From a virus, in IMG/VR virus record IMGVR_UViG_3300044701_001399, positions 1 through 33,304 of that record: a stretch of 33,304 nucleotides of DNA; one strand, given 5' to 3'. Shown here in pieces: positions 2,292-23,991 of this stretch. Under the pieces are notes generated by a model, which was not told the DNA's origin, searched no databases, and was given only the letters and a program-made list of their open reading frames with translations. The translations under genes and the position numbers were made by a program. Position 1 is the first letter of the stretch. Each line of letters starts with the position of its first letter.

Positions 2292-2645
2292 ATGAATCCA
2301 AGTTCAGCAAAAGCGAAAGGTCGCCGTCTGCAACAGTGGGTAAGAGATAGACTAATCGAAGCACTTGATATTCATCCAGAAGATATTGAATCACGCTCTA
2401 TGGGTGCTGGTGGTGAAGACCTTATCATGGCTCGTGCTGCTAGGTTAAAGTTTCCACATAGCATTGAATGTAAAAATGTGGAGAAGCTAAATATATGGGA
2501 TGCCTATGAACAGGCGTCTGCTAATTCGGGTGACTATGAACCTCTCGTTGTTATTAAAAAGAATGGTAAGAAGCCACTAGCAGTGGTAGACGCAGAGTAT
2601 TTCATTAGTTTATTCGGAGAGAAAAATGACTCTAGATCTTCATAA
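2292..2645 (+). CDS. Putative PD-(D/E)XK-type endonuclease
   Basis: A 117-residue protein with a basic helical N-terminus (SSAKAKGRRLQQWVRDRL), a GAGGEDLIM block and then HSIECKN, which fits the D...E-x-K catalytic core of PD-(D/E)XK nucleases such as Holliday-junction-resolvase-like and VRR-NUC-like enzymes. It would act on DNA as a small dimeric nuclease. GGAGG at 2278-2282 fixes the start. It overlaps the next gene by 20 bases. Family assignment is by motif only; substrate is unknown. Confidence 0.6.
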   Translation: MNPSSAKAKGRRLQQWVRDRLIEALDIHPEDIESRSMGAGGEDLIMARAARLKFPHSIECKNVEKLNIWDAYEQASANSGDYEPLVVIKKNGKKPLAVVDAEYFISLFGEKNDSRSS

Positions 2646-3297
2646 CTTTTTTAAATTTTATGATGATGGTAATTCAAACCATGTGGCGGCAGTTCAATGG
2701 TTAGAAGATAACCTACCTGCTAATTTTTTAGATGACTCAGAGAGCGATTGGATTGGTATCTTTAGAACGAAACCACCAACTCCAGAAGTTCTTGCAGTTC
2801 CATACTTCAATCAAGTAGATAACTACAGAGATGCACATAGAACTTGTAACAGTTCATCGTGCGCTATGTGTCTTGCTTTCCTCAAGCCTGGCAGCATCAA
2901 GGGCGACGATGAGTATGTCAAGAAAGTATTTGCGATTGGCGACACGACTGACCATGCGGTTCAGACGAAAGTTCTGGCAGGTTATGGCATTAAGTCACAC
3001 TTTAGCTATAATCTTTCTTTCGCTGACATTGATAAGAGCCTTGATAGAGGCAAACCCGTTGTTATTGGTATTCTCCACAGGGGTTCTTTATCTGCTCCTA
3101 CTGGTGGGCACATGTGTGTAGTCATCGGCAAGACACCAGATGGCAAGGGATACTATGTCAACGATCCATATGGTTCACTCAACGATAACTATACTGGTCC
3201 AGTTACGAATGGTAAGAAGACCATTTACACCAAAGCAGTTCTCAAGCATCGCTGGTGCCCAGGTGGCAACGATGGTTGGGGTAGAATTTTCGACTGA
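2626..3297 (+). CDS. C39-like papain-fold cysteine peptidase with shared N-terminal domain
   Basis: 223 residues. Residues 1-35 (LDLHNFFKFYDDGNSNHV, then a QWLEDNLP block) are nearly the same as the start of the next gene's product. Residues about 57-223 form a C39-type peptidase: probable nucleophile C74 in RTCNSSSCAM, H162 in TGGHMCVVIG, and D180 in YVNDPYG. Such domains cleave peptides, including cell-wall cross-links. With a GH24 lysozyme and a holin-like gene immediately downstream, cell-wall degradation is the likely role, either at lysis or in the virion. There is no signal peptide. Catalytic assignment is inferred from motif order. Confidence 0.7.
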   Translation: MTLDLHNFFKFYDDGNSNHVAAVQWLEDNLPANFLDDSESDWIGIFRTKPPTPEVLAVPYFNQVDNYRDAHRTCNSSSCAMCLAFLKPGSIKGDDEYVKKVFAIGDTTDHAVQTKVLAGYGIKSHFSYNLSFADIDKSLDRGKPVVIGILHRGSLSAPTGGHMCVVIGKTPDGKGYYVNDPYGSLNDNYTGPVTNGKKTIYTKAVLKHRWCPGGNDGWGRIFD

Positions 3298-3308
3298 GGA
3301 TAAAAACA

Positions 3309-3977
3309 ATGGCAAGAATCGACTTACACAACTTCTTCAAGTTTTATGACGAGAAGAATCCTAACCACGTTAAAGCAGTTCAGTGGTTAGAAGACAACCT
3401 ACCAGTCAAATATCTAGAAGATAATATTGATTGGGCGGAGATTTACAGAGGAAAAAAGGGTAGTGCTGCAGCTCCTGCTGCTGCAGCTTCTGCTCCTGTA
3501 GCAGGTGGTGATGATGTTCCACAGATGGGCATCAAACTAGTAAAAGAGTTTGAAGGATGTAGATTAAATGCTTATCCTGATCCTCTTTCTGGTGGTCTAC
3601 CAATCACTATTGGTTGGGGTTCAACCAGAGATAAAAATGGCAAACCATTCCAAATGGGTGACAAGATTACTCAAGCAGAAGCAGATGAGCTACTGATTGA
3701 AGAAGCAAAGCATCACTTCCTTCCAGCACTTCGTAAAATTCCACACTGGAATGAAATGTCTGATGGCAAAAGAGGTGCTCTATTATCTTTCGCCTATAAT
3801 CTGGGCGCTGGTTTTTATGGTGGTGATAATTTTAATACTATTACTCGTGTTCTAAAAAATAAAGAATGGGATAAGGTGCCCGATGCGCTTTACCTCTACA
3901 GAAATCCTGGTTCAAATGTAGAAGCAGGACTTGCTCGTAGAAGAAAAGCAGAAGGTGAGGCTTGGAAAAAAGGTTAA
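3309..3977 (+). CDS. GH24 (T4-type) lysozyme with shared N-terminal domain
   Basis: 222 residues. Residues 1-35 duplicate the N-terminal domain of the upstream peptidase; residues 50-66 are an Ala/Pro-rich linker; residues 73-222 are a GH24 muramidase. The catalytic triad can be placed as E82 (KEFEGCR), D91 (AYPDPL) and T100 (PITIGWG), with three extra residues between D and T compared with T4 lysozyme. It would hydrolyse the MurNAc-GlcNAc bond of peptidoglycan. The gene begins 11 bases after the peptidase gene. It lacks a signal peptide, so export would need the holin-like product or the virion. Confidence 0.88.
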   Translation: MARIDLHNFFKFYDEKNPNHVKAVQWLEDNLPVKYLEDNIDWAEIYRGKKGSAAAPAAAASAPVAGGDDVPQMGIKLVKEFEGCRLNAYPDPLSGGLPITIGWGSTRDKNGKPFQMGDKITQAEADELLIEEAKHHFLPALRKIPHWNEMSDGKRGALLSFAYNLGAGFYGGDNFNTITRVLKNKEWDKVPDALYLYRNPGSNVEAGLARRRKAEGEAWKKG

Positions 3978-3995
3978 TCACATTCAACAGGAACA

Positions 3996-4361
3996 ATGGC
4001 AGAACCACAGAAAAAGGAAAAATGTATGAGCACTATTGTTAGAATTACTGTATTGAGTTGGAGTGCTGCTCTACTTACTGCATCGTATGCTGGTCTACTC
4101 GCTAAGATGGATCCAACATTTATTGCTACAGTATTTACAGCCGCTGCTGCAACCTTTGGAGTAGACACTCTAAAGAAAGGAGATAAAGAAGATGGAGATC
4201 AACCTCGTAGAGAACCTGCAATCACCGCAGTTGAACCAACTCCAGAACCAGAACCTCCAGCAGAACTCGTTGCCGACGCTTCAGCAACCACAGGTTGCCC
4301 AAACTGCGATCCAGGGGATACCCCAGACTACAGTAGAGCGTCTGCCCGCCCCGAAGTTTGA
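3996..4361 (+). CDS. Holin-like two-helix membrane protein with possible dual start
   Basis: 121 residues: two hydrophobic stretches (about residues 14-36 and 41-57) around a short turn, then a charged KKGDKEDGD segment and a Pro/Glu-rich tail. Size, topology and position right after the lysozyme suggest a holin. An in-frame ATG at 4026 has the better ribosome-binding site (AAGGAAA at 4014-4020) and would remove a lysine-bearing ten-residue extension, reminiscent of the dual-start logic of lambda S. The last 170 bases are shared out of frame with the next gene. No sequence family recognised. Confidence 0.6.
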   Translation: MAEPQKKEKCMSTIVRITVLSWSAALLTASYAGLLAKMDPTFIATVFTAAAATFGVDTLKKGDKEDGDQPRREPAITAVEPTPEPEPPAELVADASATTGCPNCDPGDTPDYSRASARPEV

Positions 4362-7843: not shown

Positions 7844-8467
7844 ATGCAAACTATCTTTACAGTAGCCCTGCCCCTTTTGGCAACGGTTACAACCATTTCG
7901 GCAACACTGCCATCATCTGCTAGTGCTCCTTCGTATTCTATTATTAAGGAGTTTGAACCAGAGAAGACAGCGATCCTAGAGGTTGCTCCCGAAAAGCCAA
8001 AAGAGAAAAGGCTAATTTGTAAAGGGTGTTCAGAACATGAGAACCTTGCCTTGGATTATTTCCAAGATCAAGGAATTAAAGACAGAAACGCCCTTGCTAC
8101 TATCTTAGGTAATATTAAGCAGGAATCTATGTTCGTGCCTAATATTTGTGAAGGTGGTAGTAGGACTCAGTACCATCACTGCGGACGTGGCTATGGTCTG
8201 ATCCAATGGACATCTGCCGATCGTTATTATGGATTGGGTGATTTTGCTAAGAAGTATGGTGGTTCTCCATCAACACTTCCTACGCAACTTCGTTATCTAA
8301 CGACTGAAGTTCAGTGGAAACGAATTTCCGATAGAATGAAAACTCCTGGTAAGTCTATCGATCGTTACATGAACTATGCGTACAGTTGGATTGGTTGGGG
8401 TATTCATGGTGCCCGTACAAATTATGCCTATGAGTATGCCAACAAACTGATTACGGTAGAAGTTTAA
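7844..8467 (+). CDS. Secreted phage tail-lysozyme-like protein
   Basis: 207 residues: signal peptide (hydrophobic 3-20, cleavage near SASA), a Lys/Pro/Glu linker, then a lysozyme-like domain from about residue 65. The pattern ILGNIKQESMF (E94 as probable catalytic acid) followed by GYGLIQWTSADR is characteristic of the phage tail lysozyme family (Phage_lysozyme2 type), which cuts glycan strands during entry. Cysteines C59, C62, C102 and C113 may form disulfides outside the cell. No ribosome-binding site is visible before the ATG, which is odd after a strong promoter. Confidence 0.78.
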   Translation: MQTIFTVALPLLATVTTISATLPSSASAPSYSIIKEFEPEKTAILEVAPEKPKEKRLICKGCSEHENLALDYFQDQGIKDRNALATILGNIKQESMFVPNICEGGSRTQYHHCGRGYGLIQWTSADRYYGLGDFAKKYGGSPSTLPTQLRYLTTEVQWKRISDRMKTPGKSIDRYMNYAYSWIGWGIHGARTNYAYEYANKLITVEV

Positions 8468-19062: not shown

Positions 19063-19070
19063 TATTTATC
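19063..19070 (-). promoter_or_regulatory. Late promoter box for the 84-residue gene
   Basis: GATAAATA on the minus strand, overlapping the fibre gene's stop codon and 38 bases before the ATG at 19024. Confidence 0.6.
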
Positions 19071-22000
19071 AAGTAGAAGTAATATAAGAACCAGTAAATA
19101 CAAAACTATTTGTAGGTTCCCATCCAGTATTTGGTGTCCAATAATTAATATATTGTGTTCCATCATCAAATCTTATTAACACAGTTCCAGATGTGTATGC
19201 TGTTAATTGAATTGATCTAAAATTGTTTCCACTTGAGACATAACCATTAAAGATATGTGTATTAGATGAATCGGCAACAAATGGAAGGTCAATAACAGCA
19301 ATTGTTCCACTTCCTTCTGCCGAAAATGTAATACTTGCTTGTATCACACAAGTTCTTCCTATTTTAACATACTTACAAGTTTGTGATGATATTGTGTAGT
19401 TACTTCCACTTTCAGTTGCTATTGTTGGCGTCCAAGTTCCTTCTTCATAATCATTCAACAACTCAGAAGTCATGCCAGATGCGTTGGCATTAGCAGAGAA
19501 GTCAATACCTTTACCAGCAGCAAATGCTATATTACCAACCTCATCAATACGTAATGCTTCTGTTACAGATCCTCCAGTTGGTCTGGTATAGAATACAATA
19601 TCACCACCTTCTGCCAAGCTAGCAATTACAGATGAAGCACCGCTGTTTCCAGCATGAATAACTAGATCTCCCTGAGATGCTGTATCAGATGTAATCCTCA
19701 AACATGGAGCAGAAGAACCACCAATATGAAGAGTTCTTTGTGACCCACCAAATACTCCAGAATAAGATGGTGACCTTCCAATACCTGTATTTCCATCTGG
19801 ATTTATGATAAGTTTGGAATTACTAAACCCAGATTGTAAAGTGGAAGTAGAAATATGGAATGCATTATTTGTGTCTAGGTATCCCATACCCAAACTCCAT
19901 TTCACAGTTCCTCCTCTTGCCAGATCAAGAACAACTGGTCTGCTTTCTCCATCAGAAGGAGAATCAATAATTACTTGAGCACTATTTGAAGCGTTACCTT
20001 GTCTAAATTCTGCAATATAACCAGAAGCTTCATTACCAACTACATCTAATGTTGCTGTTGCGGATGTTGTGCCAACACCAACTCTATTATTTGTAGAATC
20101 AACAAATAACGTATTGGTATCAAACGTAGCATTACCAGATACTGTGAGTGATGTGAGGGTGCCTACGCTAGTCAAACTAGAAGCAGTAACACCAGAACCA
20201 AGTGTGGTTGCGTTTAATACACTAGTTCCGTTGATAGAATATCCTTGACCAGTTGGAACACTAACTGTTCCGTTATCATCGATTGTTGTGAGAGAGGTTT
20301 GAATGATTTTACCAGTCGCTAAATCAAATCTAGCAATAGCATTATCAGTTGATGTGCCAGCATTAGTTACTGTGTTGGGGTCAGCAAGTGTATTGAGACC
20401 TTTCCATTCAACACCACCACCAGCTTTTCTAGCAAGAACTTGGTTAGTAGTTCCAGTGCTAGCATTAGCATCCGAGATATTGTTAAGAACATATAGAGTT
20501 CCATCATTACCAATCTTAAATGCTGTGGTATCTGATGCTTCATCATTAACAACTAAACAATCTCCAGTTCCTGTATTGGTAATTGTTAGACCAACCGATG
20601 TTCCACTGCTAGCAATGGTGAGACTAGATAGAGTTCCTAGCGATGTGAGTGAAGAGTTAACTACACTGGATCCTAGGGTTGTGGAACTTAGAACGCTGAC
20701 GTTATTGATCTTGTATGTGAATCCTGTATCAACATTGAAGTGTTGGTTTGCGGTCCAGGCAGTAGCAGTATTGCTCCATGTTAGAGTCTTATCTGTTGTT
20801 CCTTTCAAACGAAGACCACCACCATCAGCTGATGTGTTTGATGGTCCAGTTGCTTGGAATGTAGCACTACCAGTTCCCAAGCTAGGAGCAGCAGATAAAA
20901 CAGCAGTTGAGTTTACATAATCAATCGATGTGATTGTTGTTCCTACTGGAACTGTCACTCCACCAGTTTGTGATACAACAACCATACCAGGGATTAGACC
21001 ATCTCCCCATGAGGTGATAGTAATGCTGGTGTTTCCTTGGGTTACGGTAGCAGTAAAGTTTGTAGTTACTACGTCACCAATGGTGATTTCTTTATCTGCA
21101 ATAGATACTTGCTGAGCGCCAATGTTTAGAATTCTACTATCTAATGTGGTGTATGTTCCTGCAGTGATAAAGTCTCCACTTGATGTTAAACCATTAGGAA
21201 TAATAACTTCATAGGAACTGTTTCCTCTTAACCACATCCCTCCACCAGAACCAATTACTAGTTGATTGCTTCCTGTTTGTGAGGGTGGTTGATATGTTAC
21301 ATCACTACTATTTTCGTTGAACGCTGGGCCGATTAGAACGTTGCCACTACCAGTTAAACCATATCCAGCATAGTGACCAATACAAACGTTATAATTTCCT
21401 TGAATGTTTGTGTATAAAGCACCAGAACCAACTGCAACGTTTTTTGAACCTACTGTATTACTGAATAGTGAACTGGTCCCCAGAGCAGTATTATCACTAC
21501 CAGTGCTGACTGAGTATCCAGATTTAAATCCTACTACAGTATTTTCGTTACCAGAGTTATTAAAGTATAATGTTTCATAACCAATAGCAGTATTGGATGT
21601 TCCTGCTCCAACACCAACAATTAGTCTTAGAGCATCTTTACCAAATGCTGTGCTATTTGTATCTCCAGATCCACCTCTACCAACACGAATGCCGCGAATT
21701 GTTACGTCTTCGTTGTTGAATGTGGTTGTTCCATTTACTGTAACTGTGTCTGCAATATTATCACATAATGTTACAGTTCCTTTGACATCAATATTATTTC
21801 TAATCGTTGTGGTTCCAGTTGTAGCACCAATTTGAACAGTAGTAGCAGCACCAAAAGCATTAATTGTTGTTGCTGTTGTGTTGAATACGTTGAATGAAGT
21901 GCTAGTAGTTAATACAGATGTTAAAAATTCTGGGCTGGTTGCAAATGTTAACTTACCAGTTCCAGTTTCATCACTAATTACGCCTCTCAATTCGTCAGAA

Positions 22001-23991
22001 GTTGTTGATGATAGAGCACTGATTTTATTGCTAGCATAAATTACAGTTCCACCAGCACCAAAAGAAATAGTAGAGTTATCAGTTCCAGAAAGAGTTACAC
22101 TGTTAGATACTGTTAGTGATTTTCCTTCTCCAATTGTTAATGTTGCTCCACTTGTAGGAGCGGTAATAGTAACTTTGTTGATAGTAAATGCTGTAGCATT
22201 TCCTAACGAGGGGTTTGTTAGTGTTGGTGAAGTTAAAGTTTTGTTAGTTAAAGTTTGAGTTTCGTTTTCTGTTACAAAACGATTAGTGGTTGTGCCATCG
22301 TATGATCTCCAGTATCCACCAGATTCGAACCATTGGAGAGCACGATATGAAGTAACAGCTCCTGTTCCGTCAGTTGTTCTATTGACTTGAATACCACCAT
22401 TTCCAGCAAGAACATTAGTTCCAGATCTTAGTTCTATTTCTGAATCTGAAATGGTTACTACCGTGCTATTTACGGTTGTTGTCGTTCCAGTAACTGCTAA
22501 GTTACCACCGATGGTTACAGTGCTGCCATCATCAGTGATGATTGAATTTACTAACTGACCATTTGTTAGATTCCATTTTAGAACTTTATTGTCAGATAAA
22601 GAACCACTATTTTTTAAAGAAACAGTTCCTGTATACGTTGTTGGATTTGTTATGGTAACGCCAGTTCCAGCACTGTAAATAGTATCTGTGTCGATAGAAT
22701 CAATATTAATAACACCACCAGATTGACTTACCGATGCTGCTCCAGTCGCAGTAAATTCAAAATCTCCAGGAGCATATGCATTTCCGCCAACTTTTAATCT
22801 GGTGATAGTATCTTGGTCGCTTGATGAAATGGTAATGGTGTTGCCAGATTGAGTTACTTGAACATCATCAGCACCAACAAAAGTAAAGTCTCCTGCAGCA
22901 TATGATCCACCAGCAGTTCCTCTAATTCTTGTGATGGTATCTAGTGATGATAAAGTAATATCGTTACCAACTTGAGTTGAAGTAACATTTGTTCCACCTA
23001 ATATTCTAACGGCACCTGTTACTGGGTTGCCGTTGACACTACCTTCTAATGTTGTAACGGTGTTAGTGCTATCTACAGTAATAACGCTGCTTGCCTGAGT
23101 TACACTGGTAGCACCAGATCCAATGATGCTAATATCTCCCGATAAAAATGTTCCAGCAGCACCACCTTTGACTCTAGTAATAGTATCTTGAGATGATACT
23201 GTAATAAGATTTCCTGATTGACTGATTGTAGTTGCACCACTCTGCAAGAAAGTTACATCTCCAGAAACAAAAGAACCTGCACTTTCTCCTTTTAATCTGG
23301 TAATAGTATTTTCATAATAAAAATCAAAACTAATAGTATTTAAATTTTGTGTAACAACAGCAGGGCAACTTAGGAAGTTTACTCCTGATGGAGATGAACC
23401 AGATACATCTAATACGACATCTCCTGTTACTGGTGTTCCTGAAACTCCCCCTTGAACTCTGGTGATAGTATCTACATAACTGCTATTGAATGTAATAGTA
23501 TCAGTGGTTCTTGCTAGAGTTACGTTTGTTCCTGCTTTTAAAATAACTTCATCTGTAGATGAAGGATTTGCACCTGTTAATACTATCTTTTGTTCTTGTG
23601 AAGCAATCGTTCCATCTTGTGCCGAAATACTGTATGTTGTATTTTCATCGGCAAAATTATATGTTCCCCCTAGACTAACGACAGTTCCGTTAAAAGTAAT
23701 TGATGGATTTTGTAAAGCAGAATTTGGTAGGTCGTAAATGTTATTACTTGAACCAGAAATATTTGAGTTCAAAAACGTCTTATTACTTAGAGTCTGAACT
23801 AGGTTTAAGTAAACATCTCCTGGTGTATCCCATACTACTTGAGCACCGTTTGATTTTAAATATTGACCAGCAACACCTGCACTACCGTTAGCGATTATAT
23901 TATTATTAGTCAGATCTAAGTTATCATTAGATCCTAACTCCTCAATTTTAGATGTGGATGGATTGACTATTAGGGGGAAGCGATTTGCCAT
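19069..23991 (-). CDS. Very long repetitive tail-fibre-like virion protein (1640 aa)
   Basis: Order of parts: a compact N-terminus (MANRFPLIVNPSTSKIEEL); a tandem-repeat stalk (residues about 174-436) built on DTITR...GD...GA..V.QSG..IT; further beta-solenoid-like segments (TTTVNSTVVTISDSEIELRS); a YadA-head-like segment around residues 776-889 (NTAIGYETLYFNNSGNENTVVG and related repeats); and a C-terminal domain beginning NDYEEGTWTPT near residue 1505, found on many phage fibres. It lacks cysteine-rich or enzymatic motifs. Likely a trimeric fibre or whisker that contacts the host. Transcribed leftward from late promoters. Confidence 0.88.
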   Translation of the reverse strand: MANRFPLIVNPSTSKIEELGSNDNLDLTNNNIIANGSAGVAGQYLKSNGAQVVWDTPGDVYLNLVQTLSNKTFLNSNISGSSNNIYDLPNSALQNPSITFNGTVVSLGGTYNFADENTTYSISAQDGTIASQEQKIVLTGANPSSTDEVILKAGTNVTLARTTDTITFNSSYVDTITRVQGGVSGTPVTGDVVLDVSGSSPSGVNFLSCPAVVTQNLNTISFDFYYENTITRLKGESAGSFVSGDVTFLQSGATTISQSGNLITVSSQDTITRVKGGAAGTFLSGDISIIGSGATSVTQASSVITVDSTNTVTTLEGSVNGNPVTGAVRILGGTNVTSTQVGNDITLSSLDTITRIRGTAGGSYAAGDFTFVGADDVQVTQSGNTITISSSDQDTITRLKVGGNAYAPGDFEFTATGAASVSQSGGVINIDSIDTDTIYSAGTGVTITNPTTYTGTVSLKNSGSLSDNKVLKWNLTNGQLVNSIITDDGSTVTIGGNLAVTGTTTTVNSTVVTISDSEIELRSGTNVLAGNGGIQVNRTTDGTGAVTSYRALQWFESGGYWRSYDGTTTNRFVTENETQTLTNKTLTSPTLTNPSLGNATAFTINKVTITAPTSGATLTIGEGKSLTVSNSVTLSGTDNSTISFGAGGTVIYASNKISALSSTTSDELRGVISDETGTGKLTFATSPEFLTSVLTTSTSFNVFNTTATTINAFGAATTVQIGATTGTTTIRNNIDVKGTVTLCDNIADTVTVNGTTTFNNEDVTIRGIRVGRGGSGDTNSTAFGKDALRLIVGVGAGTSNTAIGYETLYFNNSGNENTVVGFKSGYSVSTGSDNTALGTSSLFSNTVGSKNVAVGSGALYTNIQGNYNVCIGHYAGYGLTGSGNVLIGPAFNENSSDVTYQPPSQTGSNQLVIGSGGGMWLRGNSSYEVIIPNGLTSSGDFITAGTYTTLDSRILNIGAQQVSIADKEITIGDVVTTNFTATVTQGNTSITITSWGDGLIPGMVVVSQTGGVTVPVGTTITSIDYVNSTAVLSAAPSLGTGSATFQATGPSNTSADGGGLRLKGTTDKTLTWSNTATAWTANQHFNVDTGFTYKINNVSVLSSTTLGSSVVNSSLTSLGTLSSLTIASSGTSVGLTITNTGTGDCLVVNDEASDTTAFKIGNDGTLYVLNNISDANASTGTTNQVLARKAGGGVEWKGLNTLADPNTVTNAGTSTDNAIARFDLATGKIIQTSLTTIDDNGTVSVPTGQGYSINGTSVLNATTLGSGVTASSLTSVGTLTSLTVSGNATFDTNTLFVDSTNNRVGVGTTSATATLDVVGNEASGYIAEFRQGNASNSAQVIIDSPSDGESRPVVLDLARGGTVKWSLGMGYLDTNNAFHISTSTLQSGFSNSKLIINPDGNTGIGRSPSYSGVFGGSQRTLHIGGSSAPCLRITSDTASQGDLVIHAGNSGASSVIASLAEGGDIVFYTRPTGGSVTEALRIDEVGNIAFAAGKGIDFSANANASGMTSELLNDYEEGTWTPTIATESGSNYTISSQTCKYVKIGRTCVIQASITFSAEGSGTIAVIDLPFVADSSNTHIFNGYVSSGNNFRSIQLTAYTSGTVLIRFDDGTQYINYWTPNTGWEPTNSFVFTGSYITST
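22683..23472 (-). repeat. Tandem protein repeats in the fibre stalk
   Basis: Seven imperfect units of about 41-54 residues, each starting with (D/N)TITR or a variant. At DNA level the start recurs as GGTGATAGTATCT-like strings on the plus strand, so the repeat is still recognisable and could recombine. Confidence 0.8.

Follow-up and report, generated by a model that had tools for sequence, protein, structure and literature searches.

What does a phage gain from two neighbouring genes that begin with the same small protein module and continue into different wall-cutting enzymes, when in the second gene the end of the module falls exactly on a slippery heptamer? The two genes lie in a 33,304-nucleotide stretch of DNA (IMG/VR virus record IMGVR_UViG_3300044701_001399, positions 1 to 33,304; here called the window), a Kyanoviridae-like cyanophage fragment of 33.3 kb. 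Gene A joins the module (the N-module) to a C39-like peptidase and gene B joins it to a GH24 lysozyme. Judged from the sequence, gene B probably carries a -1 frameshift signal like that of dnaX, which would yield isoforms with and without the second enzyme, the pair being built on one module; in relatives of this locus, -1 frameshifting very probably gives products with and without the second enzyme. The features on which this reading turns are as follows.

2626..3297, + strand: gene A, N-module and C39-like (papain-fold) peptidase, 223 residues (Pfam PF13529, phrog_3617, AlphaFold2 model)
2626..2772, + strand: N-module of gene A, residues 1-49 (BLASTP to gene B; alignment of 51 modules)
3309..3977, + strand: gene B, N-module, Ala/Pro linker and GH24 lysozyme, 222 residues, the frame-0 product (PF00959)
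3309..3463, + strand: predicted -1 product of gene B, the N-module alone, 51 residues (heptamer, then -1 codons GGG TAG)
3452..3458, + strand: slippery heptamer A AAA AAG, in frame over codons G48-K49-K50 (GGA AAA AAG), at the exact end of the N-module
3465..3487, + strand: candidate stimulatory hairpin, 8-base-pair stem GCTGCAGC/GCTGCAGC with a 7-nucleotide loop, 6 nucleotides after the heptamer

In the -1 frame, a TAG stop (3461-3463) lies one codon past the slip. Compared with its dinucleotide shuffles, of which 4 in 200 were as stable, the segment 3452-3540 folds with a z of -2.47. Evidence for a signal comes from comparison of 147 nonredundant genes of the window type, in which N-C39 is followed by a separate N-GH24. 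Pairs sharing the residue at G48, K49 or K50 show no codon difference at all, and these are the only zeros among the 193 codons scored. The heptamer is present in 144 of the 147 genes, and a -1 stop follows within one codon in 129 of those 144, against 42.4 expected if the same amino acids were written with random synonymous codons. These near stops are made by eleven different 16-mers; the remaining 15 genes stop after 9-15 codons. As a background, 978 other open reading frames (ORFs) of the same loci, taken mechanically from stop to stop with at least 180 codons, contain 1815 Lys-Lys pairs, 48 of them with A AAA AAG in frame, and 5 of these 48 heptamers are followed by an equally near -1 stop. 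If instead the heptamers were incidental, the split genes described below relying on reinitiation or a start of their own and gene B making N-GH24 only, there would be no reason for the absence of synonymous change at the heptamer or for the excess of -1 stops, and we regard that explanation as quite unlikely.

The parallel with dnaX, whose -1 frameshift gives tau and gamma, covers the A AAA AAG heptamer and the near -1 stop, with a candidate hairpin a few bases on. It extends to the frame of the long product, which is frame 0 in one lineage and would result from the shift in another, a reversal also described for dnaX (PMC5009743). Unlike dnaX, the genes here are those of cyanophage endolysins, several heptamers occur, and a conserved Shine-Dalgarno stimulator is not seen. 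According to the same source, such a stimulator does not accompany every known case, cso2 being an example, and slipping in E. coli is explained by a sole tRNA-Lys that pairs weakly with AAG (PMC5009743). In a draft genome of a freshwater Synechococcus (S. lacustris, which is not known to be the host), just one of 40 tRNA matches is a tRNA-Lys, with anticodon UUU.

Under the proposed mechanism, gene A would supply the peptidase N-C39, ribosomes staying in frame on gene B would make N-GH24, and those slipping -1 at A AAA AAG would stop one codon on and release the N-module alone. Because the slip ends the product after the module, the signal would set how many polypeptides carry the lysozyme relative to those without it. 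The module is most likely a wall-docking part, an assembly part, or both, common to the enzymes, and the short form may add docking subunits or limit the lysozyme dose. Sequence comparison shows the shared module, the slippery site and its constraint, the -1 stop and, in many relatives, stem-loops; we infer that the slip rate is a useful one, that the isoforms act together and that the short form has a function.

Relatives were gathered as loci labelled with L-numbers, and the counts that follow cover L001-L477 and the window. GH24 matches of fewer than 130 residues were dropped (broken copies such as L337 among them), as were GH24 ORFs that had no C39 or N ORF terminating in the 450 bases upstream (for example, L371), the loci L171 and L172, which are the window itself, and near-copies more than 97% identical, so that 396 rows became 215. 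The scans had kept the best 80 loci of 596, 590, 424, and 373 confirmed, a sampling that favours kin of the queries, and one set of loci was found by a DNA pattern in the end of C39, which did not include the heptamer and favours that C39 end; 80 loci listed for this pattern and 40 further ones went into the counts. The 215 nonredundant GH24 loci comprise 140 with N-GH24 in frame, 11 with N-C39-GH24 in frame and 64 out of frame. A AAA AAG occurs in 137 of the 140 N-GH24 genes, with a -1 stop within one codon in 124.

All 64 out-of-frame loci have GH24 in the -1 frame relative to the upstream C39 or N domain, with the ORFs overlapping. A heptamer lies near the frame-0 stop in 63 of them: A AAA AAG in 52, G GGA AAG in five, C CCA AAG in three, T TTT TTT in two and A AAA AAA in one. 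The list includes the three motifs named as most efficient in E. coli, C CCA AAG, G GGA AAG, and A AAA AAG (PMC4066793). An earlier count that included near-copies gave 71 pairs, 68 of them overlapping, all in the -1 frame; in three pairs the ORFs were more than 250 bases apart, and of these three, two have an N ORF in between and the third is broken. The split loci bear on the incidental explanation from both sides. Close to the junction, 30 of the 64 have an ATG, GTG or TTG in the -1 frame, S-SRM01 with its overlapping stop and start being an example, as reinitiation would have it; in the other 34, no such start codon precedes GH24 in its frame. Across the split loci, one or another of the efficient heptamers keeps appearing at the corresponding position. 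Sequencing error was rejected as the cause of the split genes, since two separate S-PM2 records carry an identical site and all 64 loci are split into one and the same frame. As a separate observation, a tail resembling a zinc ribbon, CPHCGKPLGK, closes the short N-module ORF in L292, L301, L376, and L379, directly before G GGA AAG TAG, and this tail would sit on both products.

Two further loci have a different enzyme behind the signal. The N-module ORF of their second gene ends A AAA AAG TAG, and the -1 frame reads on, by way of a linker rich in Ala, to a GH19 enzyme:

L395, 6098-6664: N-module ORF with GH19 in the -1 frame
L436, 8476-9045 (minus-strand count), minus strand: N-module ORF with GH19 in the -1 frame

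The L395 enzyme matches the PWe2 endolysin in the PDB (7.6e-31) and phrog_181 (1.4e-41), and in both loci a stem lies 6 nucleotides after the heptamer (z of -3.19 and -2.98). Since these loci carry GH19 and not GH24, the module and the signal together precede two different catalytic domains.

Stems a few bases after the heptamer occur in many relatives. Counted without a shuffle control, the best stem starts 2-8 nucleotides after the heptamer in 44 of 58 loci with N-C39 and a -1 continuation and in 5 of 5 with N and a -1 continuation, in several unrelated sequences, and at 6 nucleotides in 80 of 137 window-type genes. Single folds gave z values of -5.97 for L210, -5.28 for L233, -2.49 for L423, -2.53 for L292, -5.30 for S-CAM7, -3.45 for S-PM2, and -2.33 for ACG-2014f. 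Sixteen related -1 loci share a 14-base-pair stem at a spacing of 2 nucleotides, with 99.1% of cells paired versus at most 48.7% when the stem is slid; 4 of its 14 pairs have changed on both sides, and of five measures, four are reached by 0 of 500 shuffles and the remaining one by 32 of 500. Window-type linkers are somewhat more stable than controls (mean z -1.6, n = 39, vs -0.70, n = 120). Stem-loops a few bases downstream fit the ribosome, and in this they argue against a second product made by RNA polymerase slipping on base runs. Some sites do have runs able to slip (T8 in S-CAM7, A7 in L230 and L252), but the runs of the G GGA AAG and C CCA AAG sites are three bases at most, and the A6 of the commonest heptamer is short for polymerase slippage. 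We consider an origin of this kind very improbable.

The history of the signal was read from a tree of 82 GH24 domains, midpoint rooted and with bootstrap values that had not settled. Loci with N-C39 and GH24 in the -1 frame are widely scattered on it, and a supported group of 24 (98/81) unites the window type with two loci that have C CCA AAG and with one frameshift locus of the N-N-C39 kind. To account for N-GH24 whose long product is in the -1 frame, the tree requires three changes, two of them forced by starred branches, and for the A7 in-frame fusion it requires two; because of these repeated changes, the frame of the long product appears to have flipped several times. The ancestor would have been an N-C39-GH24 protein made by -1 ribosomal frameshifting, and in the lineage of the window a second N-module would have been inserted before GH24, with the slip site directly behind it.

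A more modest explanation is that the frameshift is real and only reduces how much of the second enzyme is made, a functionless short form arising as a by-product. This would allow for the fusions that lack the signal and for a long product whose frame differs from one lineage to the next. A weaker ribosome-binding site would seem the simpler means, however, and in the window the short form is exactly the predicted folded module; the same module and signal also stand ahead of GH19 in L395 and L436. We hold it to be possible, though not the explanation we favour. The two-isoform reading can be carried further, and here we are tentative: in multi-subunit cyanophage endolysins, frameshifting rather than internal starts or separate genes may set the stoichiometry of docking subunits (N, N-N, N-C39) against subunits bearing lysozyme or GH19, with any of four catalytic domains on the same module. 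The nearest known systems are the two-polypeptide endolysins Lys170, LysIME-EF1, CTP1L, and LysP7951, in which, as is predicted here, one gene gives a full enzyme and a form with the shared non-catalytic module (PMC9430671). Theirs, however, come from in-frame internal starts that give a C-terminal wall-binding fragment and complexes of, for example, 1:3 or 1:5 (PMC9430671), whereas the cyanophage short form is predicted to be an N-terminal fragment or N-C39, sharing the start and not the stop. The word "frameshift" does not occur in the main text of that paper.

Several observations weigh against a frameshift signal in gene B and its relatives. No conserved Shine-Dalgarno-like stimulator was found in the 147 window-type genes, in which codons 43 and 44 vary freely; GGAG, AGGA or GAGG lies upstream in 72 of 137 window-type genes and in 9 of 58 N-C39 loci with a -1 continuation, counts that are approximate because the last heptamer-like string before GH24 was taken in split loci. 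Folding of the window-type linker alignment gave no consensus structure, and in 14 of the 58 N-C39 loci the best short-loop stem lies elsewhere or is lacking. Three of the 140 in-frame N-GH24 genes have no heptamer and 13 have a farther -1 stop. The split locus L240 has no heptamer but has a GTG start. Among the 11 in-frame N-C39-GH24 fusions, seven lack an A- or T-type heptamer in the stretch from C39 to GH24, a point that also favours incidental heptamers; two others have A AAA AAG with a near -1 stop and two have A7. In favour of the signal, one in-frame fusion, ACG-2014f, keeps A AAA AAG, a -1 stop after one codon, and an 8-base-pair hairpin. A AAA AAG is absent from S-CREM1, S-H34, MA01, S-CREM2, and the in-frame N-GH19 loci L272-L277, and S-B68 has it with a -1 frame that stays open for 29 codons. 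Because fusions and other architectures lack it, the signal is dispensable in some phages. The homologues moreover share ancestry, so the locus counts are not independent events.

What the products would have in common is the N-module. The first-pass annotation had described two near-identical N-termini of 30-35 residues; the similarity is real, with 31 of 47 residues identical between residues 3-49 of gene A and 4-49 of gene B (BLASTP, E 6e-19), and its length is about 47-48 residues. Every remaining BLASTP segment between the two proteins has an E of at least 5.6. The unrelated catalytic domains and the Ala/Pro linker of the lysozyme, both noted earlier, are borne out by Pfam and the ORFs. 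Over a 28-residue core, 24 amino acids and 62 of 84 bases are common to the two genes. By sequence, this is an old shared module; a recent duplication was rejected because only 12 of the 24 shared residues use the same codon.

Modelled alone (residues 1-50), the window's module is predicted to form three helices, with a predicted local distance difference test (pLDDT) score of 90.6, which agrees with the suggestion that it folds independently. It had been left open that the similarity might be confined to this phage; a protein search with the 50-residue module gave 67 phage records at E <= 1, all of Synechococcus phages. A shared module on two wall-cutting enzymes and a two-enzyme unit, as first proposed, are supported. 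Across cyanophages the module has partners of four catalytic families, C39, GH24, GH19, and glucosaminidase, in the following architectures.

N-C39 + N-GH24: window type
N-C39, then GH24 in another frame: S-PM2, S-SRM01, S-CAM7
N-C39-GH24 in a single frame: ACG-2014f
GH24-N-C39: S-CREM1
N-C39-GH19: S-H34
C39-N-GH19: S-B68
C39 + N-GH19: S-CREM2
N-GH19: L272-L277
N, then GH19 in the -1 frame: L395, L436
Glucosaminidase-N-C39: PSS2, S-CRES2
N-N-C39: L371, L372, L414, L415 (L371 has a lone GH24 gene ahead)

The GH19 labels rest on PHROGs and PDB sequence matches, Pfam giving no hit for L272 and L395; GH19 in S-B68 and S-CREM2 and the glucosaminidase in S-CRES2 were called by eye. In S-CBS2 and S-CBP2, the tblastn match to the S-PM2 N-C39 protein starts at residues 15 and 6 (among the matches listed, the best 60 of 106), and neither phage was listed by the N-module profile search. 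Tandem modules (N-N-C39) also occur in L488 and L489, contigs of cyanobacterial assemblies, L489 adjoining a gene that resembles a peptidoglycan (PG)-binding plus GH19 enzyme. The contig L487, labelled as a Euryarchaeota metagenome-assembled genome, has a window-type pair at 95% identity and is probably misbinned cyanophage DNA.

As to what the module docks on, the virion, a holin-like protein and peptidoglycan had all been suggested, and by position we guess that peptidoglycan or the wall is the likeliest of the three. The guess comes from a Myxococcota homologue with two PG_binding_1 stretches ahead of its C39 and from Pseudanabaena FACHB-1998, in which an N-N-C39 gene follows a gene resembling (by eye) a PG-binding and GH19 enzyme. 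Docking instead on a membrane protein of the phage or on its virion would suit a helical module for which neither sequence nor fold searches gave a match to a known wall-binding domain; the fold search of the PDB returned zero matches, and the profile search of PDB sequences gave a best E of only 0.24. The module occurs outside T4-like phages, however, with E values of 7.9e-9 in PSS2 and 2e-4 in S-CRES2 (profile search of 12 proteins), and in two contigs from cyanobacterial assemblies, so docking on T4-type virion parts is unlikely. When six Kyanoviridae genomes, all complete, were searched with it at E up to 10, nothing but endolysin genes matched (1, 1, 2, 2, 1, and 1 matches). These results, like the Myxococcota homologue, speak against the suggested virion docking, and we think docking on virion or membrane proteins unlikely.

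The catalytic domains themselves could be assigned. Residues 56-182 of gene A are Peptidase_C39_2 (Pfam 5.8e-14, 53.3 bits against a cut-off of 24), and the protein matches phrog_3617 at 1.3e-76. Its AlphaFold2 model (pLDDT 79.5) finds as best PDB fold match 3erv, a C39-like peptidase (E 1.9e-5), and C74, C79, H162, and D180 are invariant across 36 homologues. By sequence and model, gene A is a C39-like peptidase with a papain-like fold and a putative Cys-His-Asp set, in which either Cys may be the catalytic one. Residues 79-215 of gene B are Phage_lysozyme (GH24; Pfam 1.3e-22, 80.8 bits against a cut-off of 22.3), and by sequence its PDB matches are lysozymes and endolysins (best 2.2e-13). 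Its segment EGCRLNAYPD has, by eye, E and D correctly spaced for the catalytic E-x8-D-x5-T motif, with the T three residues farther on. Neither protein has a strongly hydrophobic stretch, the peak 19-residue Kyte-Doolittle means being 0.80 and 0.63, which agrees, on this simple scale rather than a signal-peptide predictor, with the reported lack of signal peptides.

In phages, the most familiar cases of programmed frameshifting are in tail and capsid genes. Lysins are counted among frameshift-containing genes in the PRFect paper, with reference to a 1994 Lactococcus phage lysin, and a paper on mycobacteriophage Ms6 speculates on frameshifting at the GTGA overlap before lysA. A search of the open-licence literature (titles and starts of abstracts among the records listed, and words in main texts) found no report of frameshifting in a cyanophage endolysin. 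Endolysins of phrog_3617 and phrog_10051 from S-PM2, ACG-2014f, and S-CREM1 have the same N-module and C39, and proteins of these groups carry the labels hypothetical protein, endolysin, lysozyme or "putative lysin"; phrog_3617 spans N-C39-GH24, relatives having both enzymes in one polypeptide. The "lysin" annotations of S-PM2 and S-CAM7 begin inside the GH24 domain, past the predicted frameshift, so that the deposited proteins are part of a domain. Partial annotations of this kind are at the following positions, for which the place of the domain was computed in L003 and L008 and deduced in L485.

L003, 5396-5614: partial "lysin"
L008, 4942-5214: partial "lysin"
L485, 2502-2720: partial "lysin"

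If the signal is real, conserved frameshifting in lysis enzymes would alter the annotation of an abundant virus group, and phages of cyanobacteria would have two-product lysis enzymes. The exact peptides are predicted and can be looked for in any cyanophage proteome, and the varied heptamers, stem-loops, and frame flips would form a natural experiment on the evolution of such signals.

At this locus, the nearest named relatives are S-PM2 and two other Synechococcus phages, DSL-LC02 and DSL-LC03, which match at about 81% across 46-47% of a 2.9-kb query; all three are recorded as Kyanoviridae. Genes A and B follow nrdB and a RusA-like gene and precede a DUF6450 gene, as listed here.

960-2141: nrdB (PF00268, 1.7e-55)
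2292..2645, + strand: RusA-like resolvase, upstream of gene A (phrog_244, 1.2e-21)
3996..4361, + strand: DUF6450 protein, downstream of gene B (PF20048, 5e-18)

The RusA-like gene overlaps gene A by 20 bases, and a RusA-like gene likewise precedes the N-C39 gene in S-PM2 and S-H34. The DUF6450 protein has no clear membrane segment (highest 19-residue hydropathy 1.5), and a holin role is unsupported. Elsewhere in the window, positions 7844-8467 encode a further possible wall-cutting enzyme with a hydrophobic N-terminus (Phage_lysozyme2, PF18013, 3.9e-16; phrog_512). Twelve tRNA genes lie between 8982 and 15584, a lysine tRNA not being among them, and an ORF of 1640 residues occupies 19069-23991 on the minus strand.

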